A DNA stretch of 64,000 nucleotides from Aminomonas paucivorans DSM 12260 (lineage in GTDB: Bacteria; Synergistota; Synergistia; Synergistales; Synergistaceae). Location of the stretch: positions 2,265,812 to 2,329,811 of the forward strand of contig NZ_CM001022.1 of assembly GCF_000165795.1 (NCBI RefSeq), written 5' to 3'. Below are positions 15,763 to 21,564 of this stretch, one piece after another. A program made the position numbers and the translations under genes. The notes below the pieces were generated by a model. That model searched no databases. It saw only the letters and a program-made list of their open reading frames with translations, and was not told the origin of the DNA. Positions within the stretch are counted from its first letter, which is position 1. Every line of letters begins with the position of its first letter.

Positions 15763-15791
15763 TTGACGGGGCGGACCGGGGGGACTACAAA
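15763..15791 (+). promoter_or_regulatory. Promoter of the NifX-like/Mrp unit
   Basis: TTGACG at 15763-15768, a 17-base GC-rich spacer, and TACAAA at 15786-15791. The predicted start point falls inside the palindrome at 15795-15811, the geometry expected for repression. The same TTGACG-17-TAC arrangement recurs at 19436-19464 on the other strand. Confidence 0.65.
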
Positions 15792-15794
15792 TTA

Positions 15795-15811
15795 TTGAGA
15801 AACGATCTCAA
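15795..15811. promoter_or_regulatory. Palindromic operator TTGAG-N7-CTCAA (copy 1)
   Basis: TTGAGAAACGATCTCAA is a 6-bp inverted repeat around 5 bases, directly downstream of a -10 element and just before the ribosome-binding site (15811-15817). It matches copy 2 at 19415-19431. Both copies share TTGAG and CTCAA halves spaced by 7 bases. The likely ligand is the Fur-family regulator encoded at 19461-20006. Confidence 0.7.
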
Positions 15812-15825
15812 AAGGAGTGGATCCC

Positions 15826-16143
15826 ATGTTGACGGCACTGGCCGCGGAAGGGCCGACCCTGGACGCGGTCCCGGCGGAGCGTTTCGGAAGGGCACCCTAT
15901 TTCGTTCTGGTGGAGGGCGGGAACCTGGTGGAGGCGATCCCCAATCAGGAGGCCCAGGGAAGTTCCGGAGTGGGGGGGCGCGTGGTGATGCAGCTCGCCC
16001 AAAAGGGAGTCCGGAGGGTCGTGGCCCCCCAGTTCGGCCCCAAGGCCCAGACGGCCCTGGACGCCGCGGGGATCGAGGCCCTGCCCCTCACCGGCGGCCC
16101 CACGCTGAAAGAGCTGGCGGCCTCCCTGGAGACCCGAGGATGA
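15826..16143 (+). CDS. NifX/NifB-type dinitrogenase iron-molybdenum cofactor-binding-domain protein
   Basis: 105-residue cytoplasmic protein of the NifX/NafY/MTH1175 fold, from the ATG at 15826 with AAAGGAG 8 bases upstream. It shows the family's pattern of an N-terminal strand with RFGRAPYFVLVEGG, a GVGGRVVMQLAQKGV helix and VVAPQFGPKAQTAL, ending with AAGIEALPL. Relatives bind iron-sulfur or heterometal clusters, including in the orange protein complex that contains Mrp- and MinD-type ATPases. No nif structural genes are near, so a nitrogenase role is unlikely. Its TGA overlaps an ATG (ATGA) that would open the Mrp gene if not for a frameshift. Confidence 0.82.
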   Translation: MLTALAAEGPTLDAVPAERFGRAPYFVLVEGGNLVEAIPNQEAQGSSGVGGRVVMQLAQKGVRRVVAPQFGPKAQTALDAAGIEALPLTGGPTLKELAASLETRG

Positions 16144-16206
16144 GCGGCTGCGCCGCCGCCCAGGGGGGGGCCCGCCTCCCTGCCGGAGCGGCACAACCCC
16201 GAGGGC

Positions 16207-16950
16207 GTGGCCCGGGTCCTGGCGGTGGGCAGCGGCAAGGGAGGCGTGGGCAAGAGCACCGTCACGGCCCTCTCCGCGGTGGCCCTGGCCCGGCGGGGCC
16301 TGAAGGTGGGGATCTTCGACGCGGACCTCACGGGCCCCTCCATCCCCAAGCTCCTGGGGGTCACGGAACGTCCCACGGGGTACGGGGAGGGGATCCTCCC
16401 CCCCGTCACCTCCACGCTGAAAATCTCCGTCCTGTCCATGAACCTCCTGCTGGAGGACCCCAGCCGTCCCGTCATCTGGCGAGGCCCCCTCATTGCCCAG
16501 GCCATCCGCCAGTTCTGGGGCGAGACCGTCTGGGGAAACCTGGACCTGCTTCTGGTGGACCTTCCCCCCGGGACCTCCGACGCCCCCCTCACGGTGTTCC
16601 AGACCGCCCGGTTGGACGGATTCCTTGCGGTCACCACCCCCCAGGGCCTGGCGGGGGAAGTGATGGAGAAATCCCTCCACCTGGCCCGAGAGCTGGACAC
16701 GCCCCTGGCGGGGGTGGTGGAGAACCAGTCCTACGCCCTCTGTCCCTGCTGCGGCAAGACCTTCGAGCCCTTCGGGCCGGGGAACCTCCAGTCCATCCAG
16801 GACCGGTGGGGCATGGACGTGGGCATCCGTCTCCCCCTGGACCCGGACCTGGCAGCTCTGGGAGACCGGGGGAAGCTGGAGGAGTACCGCAACGACCAGG
16901 TCCTGACCCCTCTGGAGGAAGGGCTTCGGGCCATCTTCCCGGTGATGTAG
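16207..16950 (+). CDS. mrp: Mrp/NBP35-type P-loop ATPase, apparent N-terminal frameshift
   Basis: Iron-sulfur cluster carrier ATPase, 247 residues if read from GTG 16207. Features: Walker A SGKGGVGKST, DADLTGPSIPKLLG, DLPPGTSDAPLT, and the cluster-binding CPCC motif in YALCPCCGKTFEPFG. The GTG has no convincing ribosome-binding site and leaves only about 5 residues before the first strand. A better start is ATG 16140, which overlaps the previous stop and reads MSGCAAAQGG, but that frame is lost at a run of eight Gs (16163-16170). With seven Gs the frame would continue through LPERHNPEG into the ATPase. This may be a sequence error, a real mutation or slippage. Confidence 0.85.
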   Translation: MARVLAVGSGKGGVGKSTVTALSAVALARRGLKVGIFDADLTGPSIPKLLGVTERPTGYGEGILPPVTSTLKISVLSMNLLLEDPSRPVIWRGPLIAQAIRQFWGETVWGNLDLLLVDLPPGTSDAPLTVFQTARLDGFLAVTTPQGLAGEVMEKSLHLARELDTPLAGVVENQSYALCPCCGKTFEPFGPGNLQSIQDRWGMDVGIRLPLDPDLAALGDRGKLEEYRNDQVLTPLEEGLRAIFPVM

Positions 16951-16973
16951 CGATCCGCCACCGGAGGAATGCG

Positions 16974-17008
16974 CAAGGGGGAGGGACCGGGTCGGTCCCT
17001 CCCCCTTG
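16974..17008. terminator. Bidirectional terminator between convergent ATPase genes
   Basis: A perfect 15-bp inverted repeat (16974-16988 and 16994-17008, loop GGGTC) lies between the rightward Mrp gene and the leftward ferredoxin-ATPase gene. T-content after it is modest on both sides, but position and stem strength favour termination. Confidence 0.7.
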
Positions 17009-17030
17009 TCCGTTTCCCGGCCCTCGTCCT

Positions 17031-17906
17031 CTACTCGGCTCGGGAAGCGACCTGGCGCTCCAGAAATTCCACGGCTCCTCGAAGGTGCGGGAACACGTGG
17101 TCCGAGGGAATCCGGCGGTGGGAAAGCCCCTTGGGGATCCCCGGATCGAAGGGGACCTCCCCCCAAAGGGGCCAGCCCCTCTCCCGCGCCAGGGCGCGAA
17201 GGGCCTCCGTCCCCTCGGGGGAGAGGTTCGCCTTGTTCACCACCAACCCCACGGGAACCTGGAAGCGGGCGCAGACGTCCCCGACCCGGCGAAGATCCTC
17301 CCGGGCCGTGGGGGTGGGCTCCGCCACCAGAAGGACCAGGTTCGCCCCCGCCAGGGACGACACCACGGGACAGGCCACTCCAGGCGGACCGTCCACCAGG
17401 ACCAACCCCAAACCCTCCCGCTGGGCCTCCTCCGCCCCTCGCTCCAGAACCTGCTGCACCAGCTTCCCGGAGTTCTCCCCGCCGGGCTTCAGACGAGCAT
17501 GCCACAAGGTCCCGGCGGCGCAGACCGAACGGAGGAGCTTCCCCTGCTCCGTGGGCACCAGGGAAAAAGCCTCCTGGGGACAAACATGGTGACACAGGGC
17601 GCACCCCTCGCACCGAGTCGCGTCGACCCGGGGCCCCTCCTCCCACGGGAGGGCGTCGAACCGGCACAGATCCCGGCAGGCACCGCAGCGGGTACAGCGC
17701 TTCTCGTCCAGCACCGCCACGGACTTGCCCACGAAGGGCCATTCTTCCGTGCTCTGGGGATCCAGGAGGATGCGAAGGTTGGGGGCATCCACGTCGGCAT
17801 CGCAGAAGACCCCCCGTTTGGCGAAATGAGCCGCCAGCACGGAGGTCACGCAGGTCTTCCCCGTCCCCCCCTTGCCGCTCAAAACCACGCAGCGAAAGGG
17901 CCTCAC
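17031..17906 (-). CDS. MinD-type P-loop ATPase with inserted 2x[4Fe-4S] ferredoxin domain (first copy)
   Basis: 291 residues from a GTG complementary to 17904-17906 with AGAGG upstream, which overlaps the previous stop (GTGA). Deviant Walker A is SGKGGTGKT near residue 10, followed by FCDADVDAPNL. Residues about 60-110 form a bacterial ferredoxin domain with CTRCGACRDLC and CEGCALCHHVC. The later DGPPGVACPVV and VVNKANL are switch and base-recognition motifs. These proteins are found beside NifX-like proteins in anaerobes and are thought to act in metallocluster assembly or electron transfer. It is a diverged tandem copy of the next gene, so the two may form a heterodimer. Confidence 0.85.
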   Translation of the reverse strand: MRPFRCVVLSGKGGTGKTCVTSVLAAHFAKRGVFCDADVDAPNLRILLDPQSTEEWPFVGKSVAVLDEKRCTRCGACRDLCRFDALPWEEGPRVDATRCEGCALCHHVCPQEAFSLVPTEQGKLLRSVCAAGTLWHARLKPGGENSGKLVQQVLERGAEEAQREGLGLVLVDGPPGVACPVVSSLAGANLVLLVAEPTPTAREDLRRVGDVCARFQVPVGLVVNKANLSPEGTEALRALARERGWPLWGEVPFDPGIPKGLSHRRIPSDHVFPHLRGAVEFLERQVASRAE

Positions 17907-18781
17907 GGGGCCACCTCTTTCCGGGCCACCTGCCAGATATGGGCCAAAACGGGTTCCCACCTCGGGTCCGCGTCCAGGGGAAGCTGTCCCCTGGCGTACC
18001 CTTGAGCCACCTGATCCGAATAGGGCAAGTATCCCAGGATGGGGACCTGATACCGCTCGCTCGTGGGCGTCAGATCCTCCGACCCCATGCCGGCGCGGTT
18101 CACCAGGATCCCTGCGGGAATCCCCAGGTCCTGCACCACCTCCAGGGTGGACTCCAGATCAGAAACCCCAAAGGGGGTGGGCTCCGTCACCAGCACCGCA
18201 AAGTCCCCGTGGCGCAGGGTGGCCACCAGGGGGCAGGCGTTTCCCGGCGGACCGTCCACCACCAGGGGACGACCGAAAGACTCCGCCGCCGCCAAGGTGG
18301 CCTCCAGGACCGGGATGGGGTTGGGTTCCCCCAGGAACAGCCGCCCCTCCAGACAGGAAAGCCGTCCCGCTGCGGCAAGCCGTCGCTCCCCCACGGGGAC
18401 GGGCTCCTCCCGGATCGCCCCCCGGGGGCAGACCCGGGCGCAAAGGCCGCAGCCGTGGCACAGGTCCTCCAGCACCCGCACGGGCCCGGCCCCCAGGCAG
18501 AGAAGCGCCCCGAACCGGCAGGCCTGGGCGCACCTGCCGCAACGATCGCACCGATCCGGGTCCACCACGGGACGGAGGACCCGGACCAGATCACATTCCC
18601 GATACTCCGCCCCCAGCATCAGACACAGATTGGGGGCCTCCACGTCCGCGTCCACCCCCAGGGCCTCGGGGTGCAGACACAGCATCGAAGCGGCCACACA
18701 GGTCTTGCCGGTACCCCCTTTGCCGCTGACCACGACGAGGGAGAAGGGACGTCCCCCCGCAGGATCAGTGGGAACAGCCAT
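17903..18781 (-). CDS. MinD-type P-loop ATPase with inserted 2x[4Fe-4S] ferredoxin domain (second copy)
   Basis: 292 residues. Walker A SGKGGTGKT at about 19-27, VDADVEAPNLCLML, ferredoxin insert with CDRCGRCAQAC and CHGCGLCARVC, then DGPPGNACPLVA and LVNRAGMG. It overlaps the NifX-like gene upstream by 17 bases and the first copy downstream by 4 bases, so all three are translated together. The pair resembles ATPases of the orange protein complex neighbourhood. The two paralogues differ in their insert spacing and N-terminus, which suggests distinct roles rather than redundancy. Confidence 0.85.
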   Translation of the reverse strand: MAVPTDPAGGRPFSLVVVSGKGGTGKTCVAASMLCLHPEALGVDADVEAPNLCLMLGAEYRECDLVRVLRPVVDPDRCDRCGRCAQACRFGALLCLGAGPVRVLEDLCHGCGLCARVCPRGAIREEPVPVGERRLAAAGRLSCLEGRLFLGEPNPIPVLEATLAAAESFGRPLVVDGPPGNACPLVATLRHGDFAVLVTEPTPFGVSDLESTLEVVQDLGIPAGILVNRAGMGSEDLTPTSERYQVPILGYLPYSDQVAQGYARGQLPLDADPRWEPVLAHIWQVARKEVAP

Positions 18782-19160
18782 TCCCGCAGGAACCGTGTTC
18801 CTCCCCGTGATCGTGTCCGTGGGAGGAACAGAGCGCTCCGGTGGAGCGAAGCTGTCCCCGGAGATACGACAGAAGCACGTCCTCCACGGGGCCCGAAACC
18901 CCGGAGATCAGGTCGATCCCCGCCTCCTCGAAGAGCTGGGCCGCCCGGGCCCCGATGCCCCCCGCCACCACCAGATCCACCTCGAAGCCCCGAAGCCACT
19001 GGGGGATCAGGCCGGGCTGGTGCTCCGGGCTGGGGTGGGTCTGCCGGGAGACTTCCTTGCCCTCCTGCACGTCCACCAGAAGAAACTCCGGGGCATGGCC
19101 GAAGTGCCCGGAGAGCTGGTTCCCCTCCACGGGGAAGGCGACGCGCACCAGGGCGCTCAC
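18765..19160 (-). CDS. NifX-type cluster-binding protein with His/Cys-rich tail
   Basis: 131 residues. Residues 1-105 have the NifX/MTH1175 fold pattern (RVAFPVEGNQLSGHFGHAPEF, VVAGGIGARAAQLFEEAGIDL). The last 20 or so residues (from LCSSHGHDHG to the end) are rich in His and Cys and probably bind a metal. The tail is absent from the other NifX-like protein at 15826-16143. The gene overlaps DUF5320-type gene upstream by 4 bases and the ATPase downstream by 17 bases. A cluster carrier or scaffold served by the two ATPases is a reasonable reading. Confidence 0.82.
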   Translation of the reverse strand: MSALVRVAFPVEGNQLSGHFGHAPEFLLVDVQEGKEVSRQTHPSPEHQPGLIPQWLRGFEVDLVVAGGIGARAAQLFEEAGIDLISGVSGPVEDVLLSYLRGQLRSTGALCSSHGHDHGEEHGSCGNGCSH

Positions 19161-19399
19161 TGGTTTCCCTCCTGCTGAGGCGCCGCCTTCAGGGCCTCAA
19201 GCCTCGCCACCTCCTGCTGGAGGTACGCAAGCCTCTGGTCCACCCAGGCCTGCTGCGAACCGGCGGCCAAGCCCCAGCCGCAAGGCCCCAGACCTCGGCC
19301 CGACCCCATGCCTCCGCGAAAACCCCTGGCGCCTCCGGGCCCGGTTCCTGGACCGCAATTCCCGGCGAAACGACCGCCAAAACCCCGTCCGAATCCCAT
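19157..19399 (-). CDS. Small Gly/Arg-rich DUF5320-type protein
   Basis: 80 residues: a glycine- and arginine-rich N-terminal half (MGFGRGFGGRFAGNCGPG, with FRGGMGSGRGLGPCGWG) and a C-terminal helix likely to form a coiled coil (QRLAYLQQEVARLEALKA). This layout matches small proteins that occur beside NifX-like and ferredoxin-ATPase genes in many anaerobes. Function is unknown. AAGGGGGGA precedes the ATG. It is the first gene of the leftward unit and lies right behind operator copy 2. Confidence 0.75.
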   Translation of the reverse strand: MGFGRGFGGRFAGNCGPGTGPGGARGFRGGMGSGRGLGPCGWGLAAGSQQAWVDQRLAYLQQEVARLEALKAAPQQEGNQ

Positions 19400-19411
19400 G
19401 ATGATCCCCCC

Positions 19412-19434
19412 TTATTGAGTTTAGTTCTCAATAA
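19412..19434. promoter_or_regulatory. Palindromic operator TTGAG-N7-CTCAA (copy 2)
   Basis: A perfect 8-bp inverted repeat, TTATTGAG (19412-19419) and CTCAATAA (19427-19434), separated by 7 bases. Read leftward it lies directly after the -10 element and ahead of the ribosome-binding site of the DUF5320-type gene. Its 17-bp core has the same halves and spacing as copy 1. It is 27 bases from the stop of the Fur-family gene. Confidence 0.75.
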
Positions 19435-19435
19435 G

Positions 19436-19464
19436 AGCGTAGCGCCGAAGGGTCCCCCCGTCAA
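19436..19464 (-). promoter_or_regulatory. Promoter of the leftward NifX/ATPase unit
   Basis: On the minus strand TTGACG (19459-19464), 17-base spacer, and TACGCT (19436-19441), followed at once by the palindrome. It overlaps the last codons of the Fur-family gene. The -10 is weak, but the arrangement copies the promoter-operator at 15763-15811. Confidence 0.55.
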
Positions 19465-20006
19465 GCCGCTGGCCCCGTCCCCCAGCGCCCCTTCCGTCGG
19501 CCGCATCGGCAGCCCCCGCAAAGAGCGCACCGGGGCAGTTCCTGCCCCTCCCCCCGGCAGCGATCGCACACTCCCCGCAGGGAAATCCGCTGCCCCAGAA
19601 GGGAGAAATCCTGCTCCCGAGCCCAGGATCGTAGAGAATCCACCAGCTCCGCCGGGGCCTCCTGGGTCCGGCCGCAGCAGCGGCACACCAGCTCCAGCCG
19701 GGGACGGTCCTCTGTGGGGGCGAAGCGCTGCCTTCCCTCTTCCCCCTCCCGACGATGCACCAGCTCCAGATCCCCGAGAAGGTCCAAGGTCCTGTACACC
19801 GTGGCCAACCCCACGGACGGGTCCAGAGCCCGGACCCGGAGGAACAGGTCCTGGGCACCGACCCCGTCCCCCGCCTCCAGCAGAACCTCCACGATGCGCC
19901 GCCGCTGGGCGGTGATCCGACACCCCACCCCCCGCAGCGCCTCCAGGTATCGCTCCGTCTCCTCGGTCACAGAGGCCTTCCCGGCCTCGTCCCTTTCCTC
20001 ACCCAT
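19461..20006 (-). CDS. Fur-family regulator with altered sensor site and Cys-rich tail
   Basis: 181 residues, cytoplasmic. The winged-helix part spans about 15-90 (GCRITAQRRRIVEVLL, then VGLATVYRTLDLLGDL, the recognition helix). The structural zinc site appears intact: C108xxC111 and C147xxC150. The histidine cluster that normally precedes the first CxxC in Fur is absent (RPRLELVC instead of an HHDH-type sequence), so ordinary iron sensing is doubtful. After residue 155 there is an extra tail with C160, C163, C166 and C168, a possible site for an iron-sulfur cluster or another metal. By position it is the likely regulator of the two palindrome-controlled units beside it. That link is an inference. 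Confidence 0.85.
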   Translation of the reverse strand: MGEERDEAGKASVTEETERYLEALRGVGCRITAQRRRIVEVLLEAGDGVGAQDLFLRVRALDPSVGLATVYRTLDLLGDLELVHRREGEEGRQRFAPTEDRPRLELVCRCCGRTQEAPAELVDSLRSWAREQDFSLLGQRISLRGVCDRCRGEGQELPRCALCGGCRCGRRKGRWGTGPAA

Positions 20007-20077: not shown

Positions 20078-20106
20078 TTGACGGCCCTCGTTCCAGGACA
20101 CTCAAT
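20078..20106 (+). promoter_or_regulatory. Possible promoter of the MOSC gene with an operator half-site
   Basis: TTGACG at 20078-20083, then 17 bases, then CTCAAT at 20101-20106, a weak -10. The CTCAATA sequence equals one half of the palindromes at 15795 and 19412, but the matching TTGAG half is missing. Regulation by the same protein is possible but not supported by a full site. Confidence 0.3.
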
Positions 20107-20145
20107 AGGGGGAACGAAACCATCATCCTTGGGAGGTCGATCCCC

Positions 20146-20571
20146 ATGGCCCGTCTGGTGGCGGTGTGTGCGAGCAAGGTGCGGCAGGAGCCAAAGGTGG
20201 AGCTGCCCGAAGGGACCTGCGTGGAGGGCAAGGGGTTGGAGGGGGATTCCCACTTCGGCATCCCCGGACGTCCCTTGAGCCTCCTGCGGAGGGAGGACGT
20301 GGAGCAGGTGGAGGTCCTGGCAGGCTTCCCCTTCCCCCCGGGCTCCCTGGCGGAGAACCTGGTGGTGGAGGGACTGCCGGATCTGGCGGTGGGGGACCTG
20401 CTGGAGATCGGGGGAGCGCTGCTTCGGGTGGCGGAGAAGGGCAAACGCCCCGAAGAGCCCCACAGCTACGACTACCGGGGCTGGTGCCTGCTGCCCACGG
20501 TGGGGTTCTTCTTGGAGGTGGAGCGGGGGGGAGTCCTGCGCCCCGGCGACGAGGTGACCCTGAAGAGGTAG
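20146..20571 (+). CDS. MOSC-domain protein
   Basis: 141 residues from ATG 20146 with GGGAGG 9 bases upstream. This is a stand-alone MOSC domain (MLVA-type start MARLVAVCASKV, GLEGDSHFG, LSLLRREDVEQ, GSLAENLVVEG). MOSC domains are related to the C-terminal domain of molybdenum-cofactor sulfurase and are thought to handle a sulfur or molybdenum-cofactor group. The conserved cysteine of many members is not clear here. A molybdenum hydroxylase is encoded at 54461-58130 in this window, so a cofactor role is plausible. Divergent from the Fur-family gene. Confidence 0.82.
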   Translation: MARLVAVCASKVRQEPKVELPEGTCVEGKGLEGDSHFGIPGRPLSLLRREDVEQVEVLAGFPFPPGSLAENLVVEGLPDLAVGDLLEIGGALLRVAEKGKRPEEPHSYDYRGWCLLPTVGFFLEVERGGVLRPGDEVTLKR

Positions 20572-21064: not shown

Positions 21065-21078
21065 GTTCGACATCGAAC
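21065..21078. promoter_or_regulatory. MarR-type operator upstream of the PNPOx-like gene
   Basis: GTTCGA-CA-TCGAAC inverted repeat, 6-bp arms. It matches the site at 21542-21555 over TAGTwCGACrTCGAAC. A possible minus-strand promoter surrounds it (TTGCGC at 21084-21089 and CTAAAT at 21060-21065, 18-base spacing), so the site would cover the spacer. Confidence 0.65.
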
Positions 21079-21535: not shown

Positions 21536-21564
21536 AATATAGTACGACGTCGAACTTCTTGCAA
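21536..21564 (-). promoter_or_regulatory. Promoter of the MarR gene with operator in the spacer
   Basis: On the minus strand TTGCAA (21559-21564), exactly 17 bases, and TATATT (21536-21541). The palindrome at 21542-21555 fills the spacer, so regulator binding would exclude RNA polymerase (autorepression). Confidence 0.75.
21542..21555. promoter_or_regulatory. MarR-type operator at its own promoter
   Basis: GTACGACGTCGAAC, an inverted repeat with one mismatch, between the -35 and -10 boxes of the MarR promoter. The same 14-bp element occurs at 21065-21078. Confidence 0.7.

Follow-up and report, generated by a model that had tools for sequence, protein, structure and literature searches.

Fur-box-like palindromes at both operons of a NifX/Mrp/MinD gene island in Aminomonas paucivorans point to a small dedicated control circuit in Synergistales

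Results

The window, by which we mean the whole 64,000-nucleotide stretch of the Aminomonas paucivorans DSM 12260 genome that was analysed, carries two convergent operons, nifX-mrp on the plus strand and a DUF5320-like gene, nifX and two ferredoxin-MinD ATPase genes on the minus strand. The plus-strand operon encodes a NifX-like protein with a Nitro_FeMo-Co domain (15817 to 16143, +; PF02579, 9.9e-14), whose likely start is the ATG at 15826 behind the RBS AAGGAG, and an Mrp/NBP35-type iron-sulfur carrier P-loop ATPase (16207 to 16950, +; PF10609, 3.7e-75), which matches the NCBIfam MrpORP model at 7.8e-76, under its cut-off. The minus-strand operon opens with a small Gly-rich protein (19157 to 19399, -) which has no Pfam or NCBIfam match and occupies the position of the DUF5320 gene (PF17253) that comes first in relatives. 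It is followed by a second NifX-like protein with a Nitro_FeMo-Co domain (18765 to 19160, -; PF02579, 1.4e-20), which matches the ORP half of MrpORP (NF041136 positions 265-365), and by MinD1 (17903 to 18781, -) and MinD2 (17031 to 17960, -), both MinD-type P-loop ATPases with a 4Fe-4S ferredoxin insert, assigned from Pfam and from orthologs in relatives. The Mrp/NBP35 ATPase, the Di-Nase domain and the MinD-type ATPases of an ORP/MrpORP system are encoded together here, with Mrp and Di-Nase as separate proteins and the MinD pair present.

Next to this island lies a gene for a Fur-family regulator of 181 aa with a Cys-rich tail (19461 to 20006, -), our candidate repressor, identified from PF01475 (1.5e-18), its orthologs, a structural model and matches to Fur structures in the PDB. 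The first-pass annotation had this gene beginning beside the second palindrome described below; it is in fact the 3' end that lies there, and the start is about 570 bp away. Divergent from fur is a gene for a MOSC-domain protein (20146 to 20571, +; PF03473, 3.6e-10), which adjoins fur in several relatives.

Two further observations were made on the window. At the 5' end of mrp (16140-16206), an ATG overlapping the nifX stop reads MSGCAAAQGG..., resembling the Mrp starts of relatives, and it is one frame off the Mrp body with an 8-G homopolymer (16163-16170) between them; this may be explained by an error in the sequence, by slippage or by a start site further downstream. The near-identical palindromes GTTCGACATCGAAC and GTACGACGTCGAAC, at 21065-21078 and 21542-21555, precede a PPOX-type gene and a MarR-family gene (21574-21098), and are likely MarR operators (6 matches against 0.5 expected).

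A pattern search of the window found exact TTGAG-N7-CTCAA twice, at 15795-15811 and 19415-19431, which bears out the earlier observation of two palindromes with the same half-sites and a 7-base spacing; the half-sites and the spacer are identical between the two. Operator 1 spans 15792 to 15814 with TTGAGAAACGATCTCAA as its core, and operator 2, TTATTGAGTTTAGTTCTCAATAA, is a palindrome extended to 23 bp (19412 to 19434). Both are symmetric features without an assigned strand, defined from pattern searches, promoter alignment and conservation in relatives. The bare TTGAG-N7-CTCAA pattern has 3 exact copies in the 2.63 Mb genome, which is about the chance level. The extended form TTATTGAG-N7-CTCAATAA, searched with 16 fixed bases and at most 3 mismatches, matched the genome only at the two island promoters, and its reversed control gave 0 matches. 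The scatter of random genomic matches that could have undermined the proposed regulon was thus not seen. The third exact core copy, at 940089, was rejected as an operator, as it lies in coding-looking sequence and is devoid of the symmetric extension; one-mismatch sites at 643.7 and 648.1 kb were set aside as regulon members, no NifX/Mrp link being seen at either.

Both operators are situated 32-33 bp past a TTGACG -35-like element; they follow closely on the -10 and lie ahead of the RBS. On the plus strand the order is TTGACG-17-TACAAA-TTA-site, then RBS and ATG, with the -35-like element at 15763 to 15768 (at the distance from the operator seen in relatives) and the weak -10-like element TACAAA at 15786 to 15791 behind a 17-bp spacer. 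On the minus strand it is TTGACG-17-TACGCT-CTTA-site, again followed by RBS and ATG; here the -35-like element (19459 to 19464) overlaps the fur stop codon, and the weak -10-like element TACGCT of the NifX/MinD operon lies at 19436 to 19441. Both minus-strand elements and the plus-strand -10 were assigned from the promoter alignment and from relatives. The two promoter regions can be aligned from the -35 through the start codon, and this confirms the earlier placing of the palindromes behind TTGACG-17-TAC-type promoters and before an RBS, one for each direction of transcription. A mechanical scan for sigma-70 promoters reported no strong one at either site and missed the plus-strand -10 as well, owing to the weakness of the -10 elements. 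We base the promoter call on the parallel structure of the two regions and on its conservation. With this layout, the operator would cover the transcription start. In the MOSC promoter region (about 20078-20107) we noticed TTGACG, 17 bp and a lone half-site CTCAATA with a G-run, an arrangement that closely resembles operator 2. The half-site has no partner, and the corresponding region of the relative G081 is also without a box.

In ten Synergistales families, the same promoter position was observed to carry a Fur-family 7-1-7 box with the consensus TTGATAAT-N-ATTATCAA. De novo clustering of palindromes upstream of island genes, for which the box was not supplied as input, yielded TTGATAATNATTATCAT, a classical 7-1-7 Fur box, and TTGAGAATNNTTCTCAA. 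The window's exact core had been tried as a motif across relatives and was abandoned: it returned mostly background matches and missed the T-type boxes, which only the de novo clustering recovered. Over the ten families, boxes at 0, 1, 2 and 3 mismatches numbered 8, 12, 21 and 34, against 0, 0.2, 1.4 and 9.8 in locally shuffled sequence. With K/M permitted at position 4 of the half-site, a single box was seen ahead of the DUF5320-NifX-MinD operon in nearly all islands. The T form is the commonest, the G form occurs in the window genome, family f5 and part of f6, and the boxes of family f7 combine one T half with one G half. Among 27 sites, the TGA.A...T.TC(A) positions are invariant or almost so, and it is position 4 that varies within the outer arms. 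The -35 starts 32-34 bp before the box in many relatives, including all full G-class sites of the main operon.

The window operators show the inverted heptamers TGANAAT-N-ATTNTCA at a promoter, with a symmetric T to G change at half-site position 4 (TGATAAT to TGAGAAT). Relatives match at 0-2 mismatches; the window sites keep TGAG/CTCA while their inner bases deviate, giving at least 3 mismatches to the full consensus, more than in relatives. Judged on its sequence, the window operator is a variant of the Fur box and no new class, because it is a 7-1-7 box with a T to G change at a position that is already degenerate in Vibrionaceae, whose Fur box AATGANAATNATTNTCATT is written with N at half-site position 4 (PMC5511505). 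A chance origin of the extended site was rejected on its uniqueness to two places; the 5+5 core alone is not significant. The idea that the palindromes are accidental or non-regulatory, for example mRNA hairpins near the RBS, can appeal to the chance-level frequency of that core, but it is at odds with a promoter position conserved over ten families and with changes that keep the symmetry, and we regard it as extremely improbable.

Among 16 island genomes, boxes with at most 1 mismatch number 0-3 per genome, and all perfect copies are at the island. Further boxes precede other DUF5320 genes (G045, G107) and mrp (G080). A Fur-type box also precedes a rhodanese-domain gene in two f3 genomes (L188 1501, L189 1501), which suggests, from sequence context, that this gene may be a sulfur-handling satellite of the regulon. 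Island-less relatives have 0-4 one-mismatch boxes each, and no perfect box was found in them; single off-island sites are therefore weak evidence and only suggestive. A stretch of 10 kb in G057 holds four sites with no more than 1 mismatch: one precedes NifX or an oxidoreductase, and the others precede the DUF5320 operon, Mrp and a radical-SAM gene. The neighbours of the island in family f5 include a periplasmic-binding/permease/ATPase transporter and a radical-SAM gene that is preceded by a box (L047 13641, L047 10636-13586); both may be extra members of the regulon.

The candidate regulator scores 67.5 bits against the Fur superfamily profile PF01475 (cut-off 23.1), and does not reach the cut-off of the Fur equivalog NF051892 (84.3 against 220 bits). 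Its AlphaFold model (pLDDT 86.6) has the Fur fold, with a winged-helix and a dimerisation domain and a disordered tail. The top Foldseek matches are all Fur/Mur/PerR, and the solved relatives are Fur, PerR, Mur and Nur. The CxxC...CxxC structural zinc site is present, C108, C111, C147 and C150 being invariant in the ortholog alignment. The DNA contacts of Fur include Tyr56, Arg57 and Lys14 (PMC7536154); the first two are invariant in orthologs, and the Lys14 position is always Arg. The regulatory metal sites are different. The site-2 ligands H33, E81, H88 and H90 (E. coli numbering) are all retained by most orthologs, but are G, A, R and E in the window protein, and only H33 is kept in the G081 protein. 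The site-3 ligands H87, D89, E108 and H125 read P, L, V and Q in the window protein, with H125 replaced by Gln in 41/41 orthologs aligned. Since all site-2 and site-3 ligands are lost, canonical iron sensing cannot be assumed for the window protein. Its tail carries C160-x2-C163-x2-C166-x-C168, and the cysteine corresponding to C168 is at least 90% conserved among orthologs.

Just three positions, Ile50/Val, Leu59 and Arg70 (E. coli numbering), distinguish the G-class proteins from the T-class ones. The last of these has been placed near the box (PMC7536154) and is R/Q in G-class proteins. Covariation of Arg70 with the operator class is suggestive; we make no such claim because Arg is present in one T-type genus as well and the independent G-type clades number only two.

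Searching relatives with the window's Fur-like protein (E < 1e-19) gave an ortholog in 42 of 121 genomes, and the MinD island was present in 42/42 of these. The island occurs without a detected ortholog in 5 genomes, and 74 have neither (Fisher p of about 2e-27, uncorrected for relatedness). In most ortholog genomes, fur lies directly beside MOSC, NifX, Mrp or the NifX-MinD operon, and the gene order MOSC-fur-nifX-mrp-DUF5320-nifX-MinD-MinD recurs. Family f5 counts against the reading of a dedicated regulator, as its ortholog lies far from the island and is without a box of its own. No box was found for the window fur gene itself, and autoregulation is therefore not indicated. A Fur-like gene followed by a DUF5320-resembling gene, NifX and Mrp was also seen on a contig (L246 32-1414 and on) that is filed under a Sediminispirochaeta MAG, with no recognisable box found; transfer or misbinning is possible.

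In a phylogenetic tree, the island orthologs stand apart from the other Fur-family paralogs of the order (support 0.979). Three such proteins are present in the window genome and Fur-family boxes resemble one another, hence a paralog, either the PerR-like protein at 1366.8 kb or a Zur-like one, might be the true binder. We hold this to be quite improbable, since the island-less relatives, in which no perfect box was detected, have PerR-like and Zur-like paralogs too, and the PerR-like recognition helix reads ATIYST instead of ATVYRT. An ordinary global Fur that acts on the island as on many other iron-Fur targets, the Fur-like gene next to it being incidental, would fit the classical form of the ancestral box and the site-2 ligands kept by most orthologs. 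This too is unlikely, if somewhat less so. Complete genomes contain only the 0-3 boxes with at most 1 mismatch, perfect ones being confined to the island; the ortholog tracks the island and not all genomes; the window genome has no good classical Fur box; and no box was found at its two strongest FeoB loci or at a third locus tested.

Discussion

Taken together, the two palindromes very probably serve a dedicated repressor of the Fur family as its operators; this repressor, most likely the product of 20006-19461, would co-regulate both operons. The parts that we infer are the binding of this protein to the sites, the direction of control (repression, not activation) and the signal. In the proposed mechanism, a Fur-family dimer would bind the 7-1-7 box TGAGAAN-N-NTTCTCA, which follows closely on the -10 and overlies the expected start of transcription, and the bound dimer would obstruct RNA polymerase at each of the two convergent operons. 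This would co-regulate NifX, Mrp and the ferredoxin-MinD ATPases, which would make up an ORP/Mrp-like iron-sulfur or metal-sulfur cofactor system. The first-pass annotation had proposed a new regulon with an operator unlike the Fur box. A small dedicated regulon on both halves of the island, with the adjacent Fur protein as the best candidate, is upheld by co-occurrence, synteny and the shared promoter position of the box in ten families; the operator, being a 7-1-7 Fur box with T to G at position 4, is not of a new kind.

The window system shares with Fur the fold, the winged-helix contacts and the two CxxC pairs, and with the 7-1-7 Fur box, including that of Vibrionaceae, the inverted repeat with TGA...TCA ends and the operator position at the promoter. 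It differs in that each genome has one to few sites, which lie at a NifX/Mrp/MinD island rather than at iron uptake genes, in the G at half-site position 4 and in the Gln at the site-3 His125 position of all aligned orthologs; the window protein has in addition lost the whole of site 2 and carries the Cys tail. The nearest characterised relatives in sequence and structure are Fur proteins of the Bacillus/Paenibacillus type (PDB 9ire, 9a4a; NF051892), from which the window protein differs in its metal site and targets, and in a score far under the NCBIfam cut-off.

In Desulfovibrio vulgaris, the divergent orp1/orp2 operons (ORP complex, MrpORP) are activated by sigma-54, the enhancer-binding protein DVU2106 and IHF (PMC6345978, PMC3897727). 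Each system has MinD-type ATPases, Di-Nase (NifX/ORP) proteins and an Mrp/NBP35 protein, encoded in two operons, and the logic of matching palindromes with one cognate regulator for both operons appears to be shared, the regulator being putative here. In contrast to orp1/orp2, the window operons are convergent, with sigma-70-like promoters and a Fur-family box. Within the papers it covered, a literature search found no Fur regulon in Synergistetes and no Fur-NifX-Mrp link, and we found no description of a dedicated Fur-type circuit on a metal-cofactor island.

As to the signal, relatives which keep site 2 probably respond to iron or Fe-S status, and for the window protein a signal based on the Cys tail or on a cluster is possible, going by the residues retained. 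More tentatively, it may be speculated that in the window lineage and G081 a Fur-fold repressor that lost metal-sensing sites 2 and 3 (apart from H33 in G081) senses the island's own Fe-S or metal-sulfur cluster through the Cys tail, acting as a cluster or thiol sensor in feedback control, with the operator shifted to TGAG; we consider this rather doubtful.

Regulator, site and genes travel together across the order Synergistales, a pattern which points to a small dedicated control circuit. The functions of the NifX/Mrp/MinD (ORP-like) islands of anaerobes are poorly known, and a compact order-wide regulon with a Fur-family protein would offer a direct handle on the physiological signal, because whatever releases the repressor is likely to be what the island handles. 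It appears that a protein of the Fur type has turned into a local regulator that has one to few sites in each genome and whose sensing ligands, along with one operator base, have drifted. Its orthologs share the same target genes, and retention and loss of sensing may thus be compared among them.
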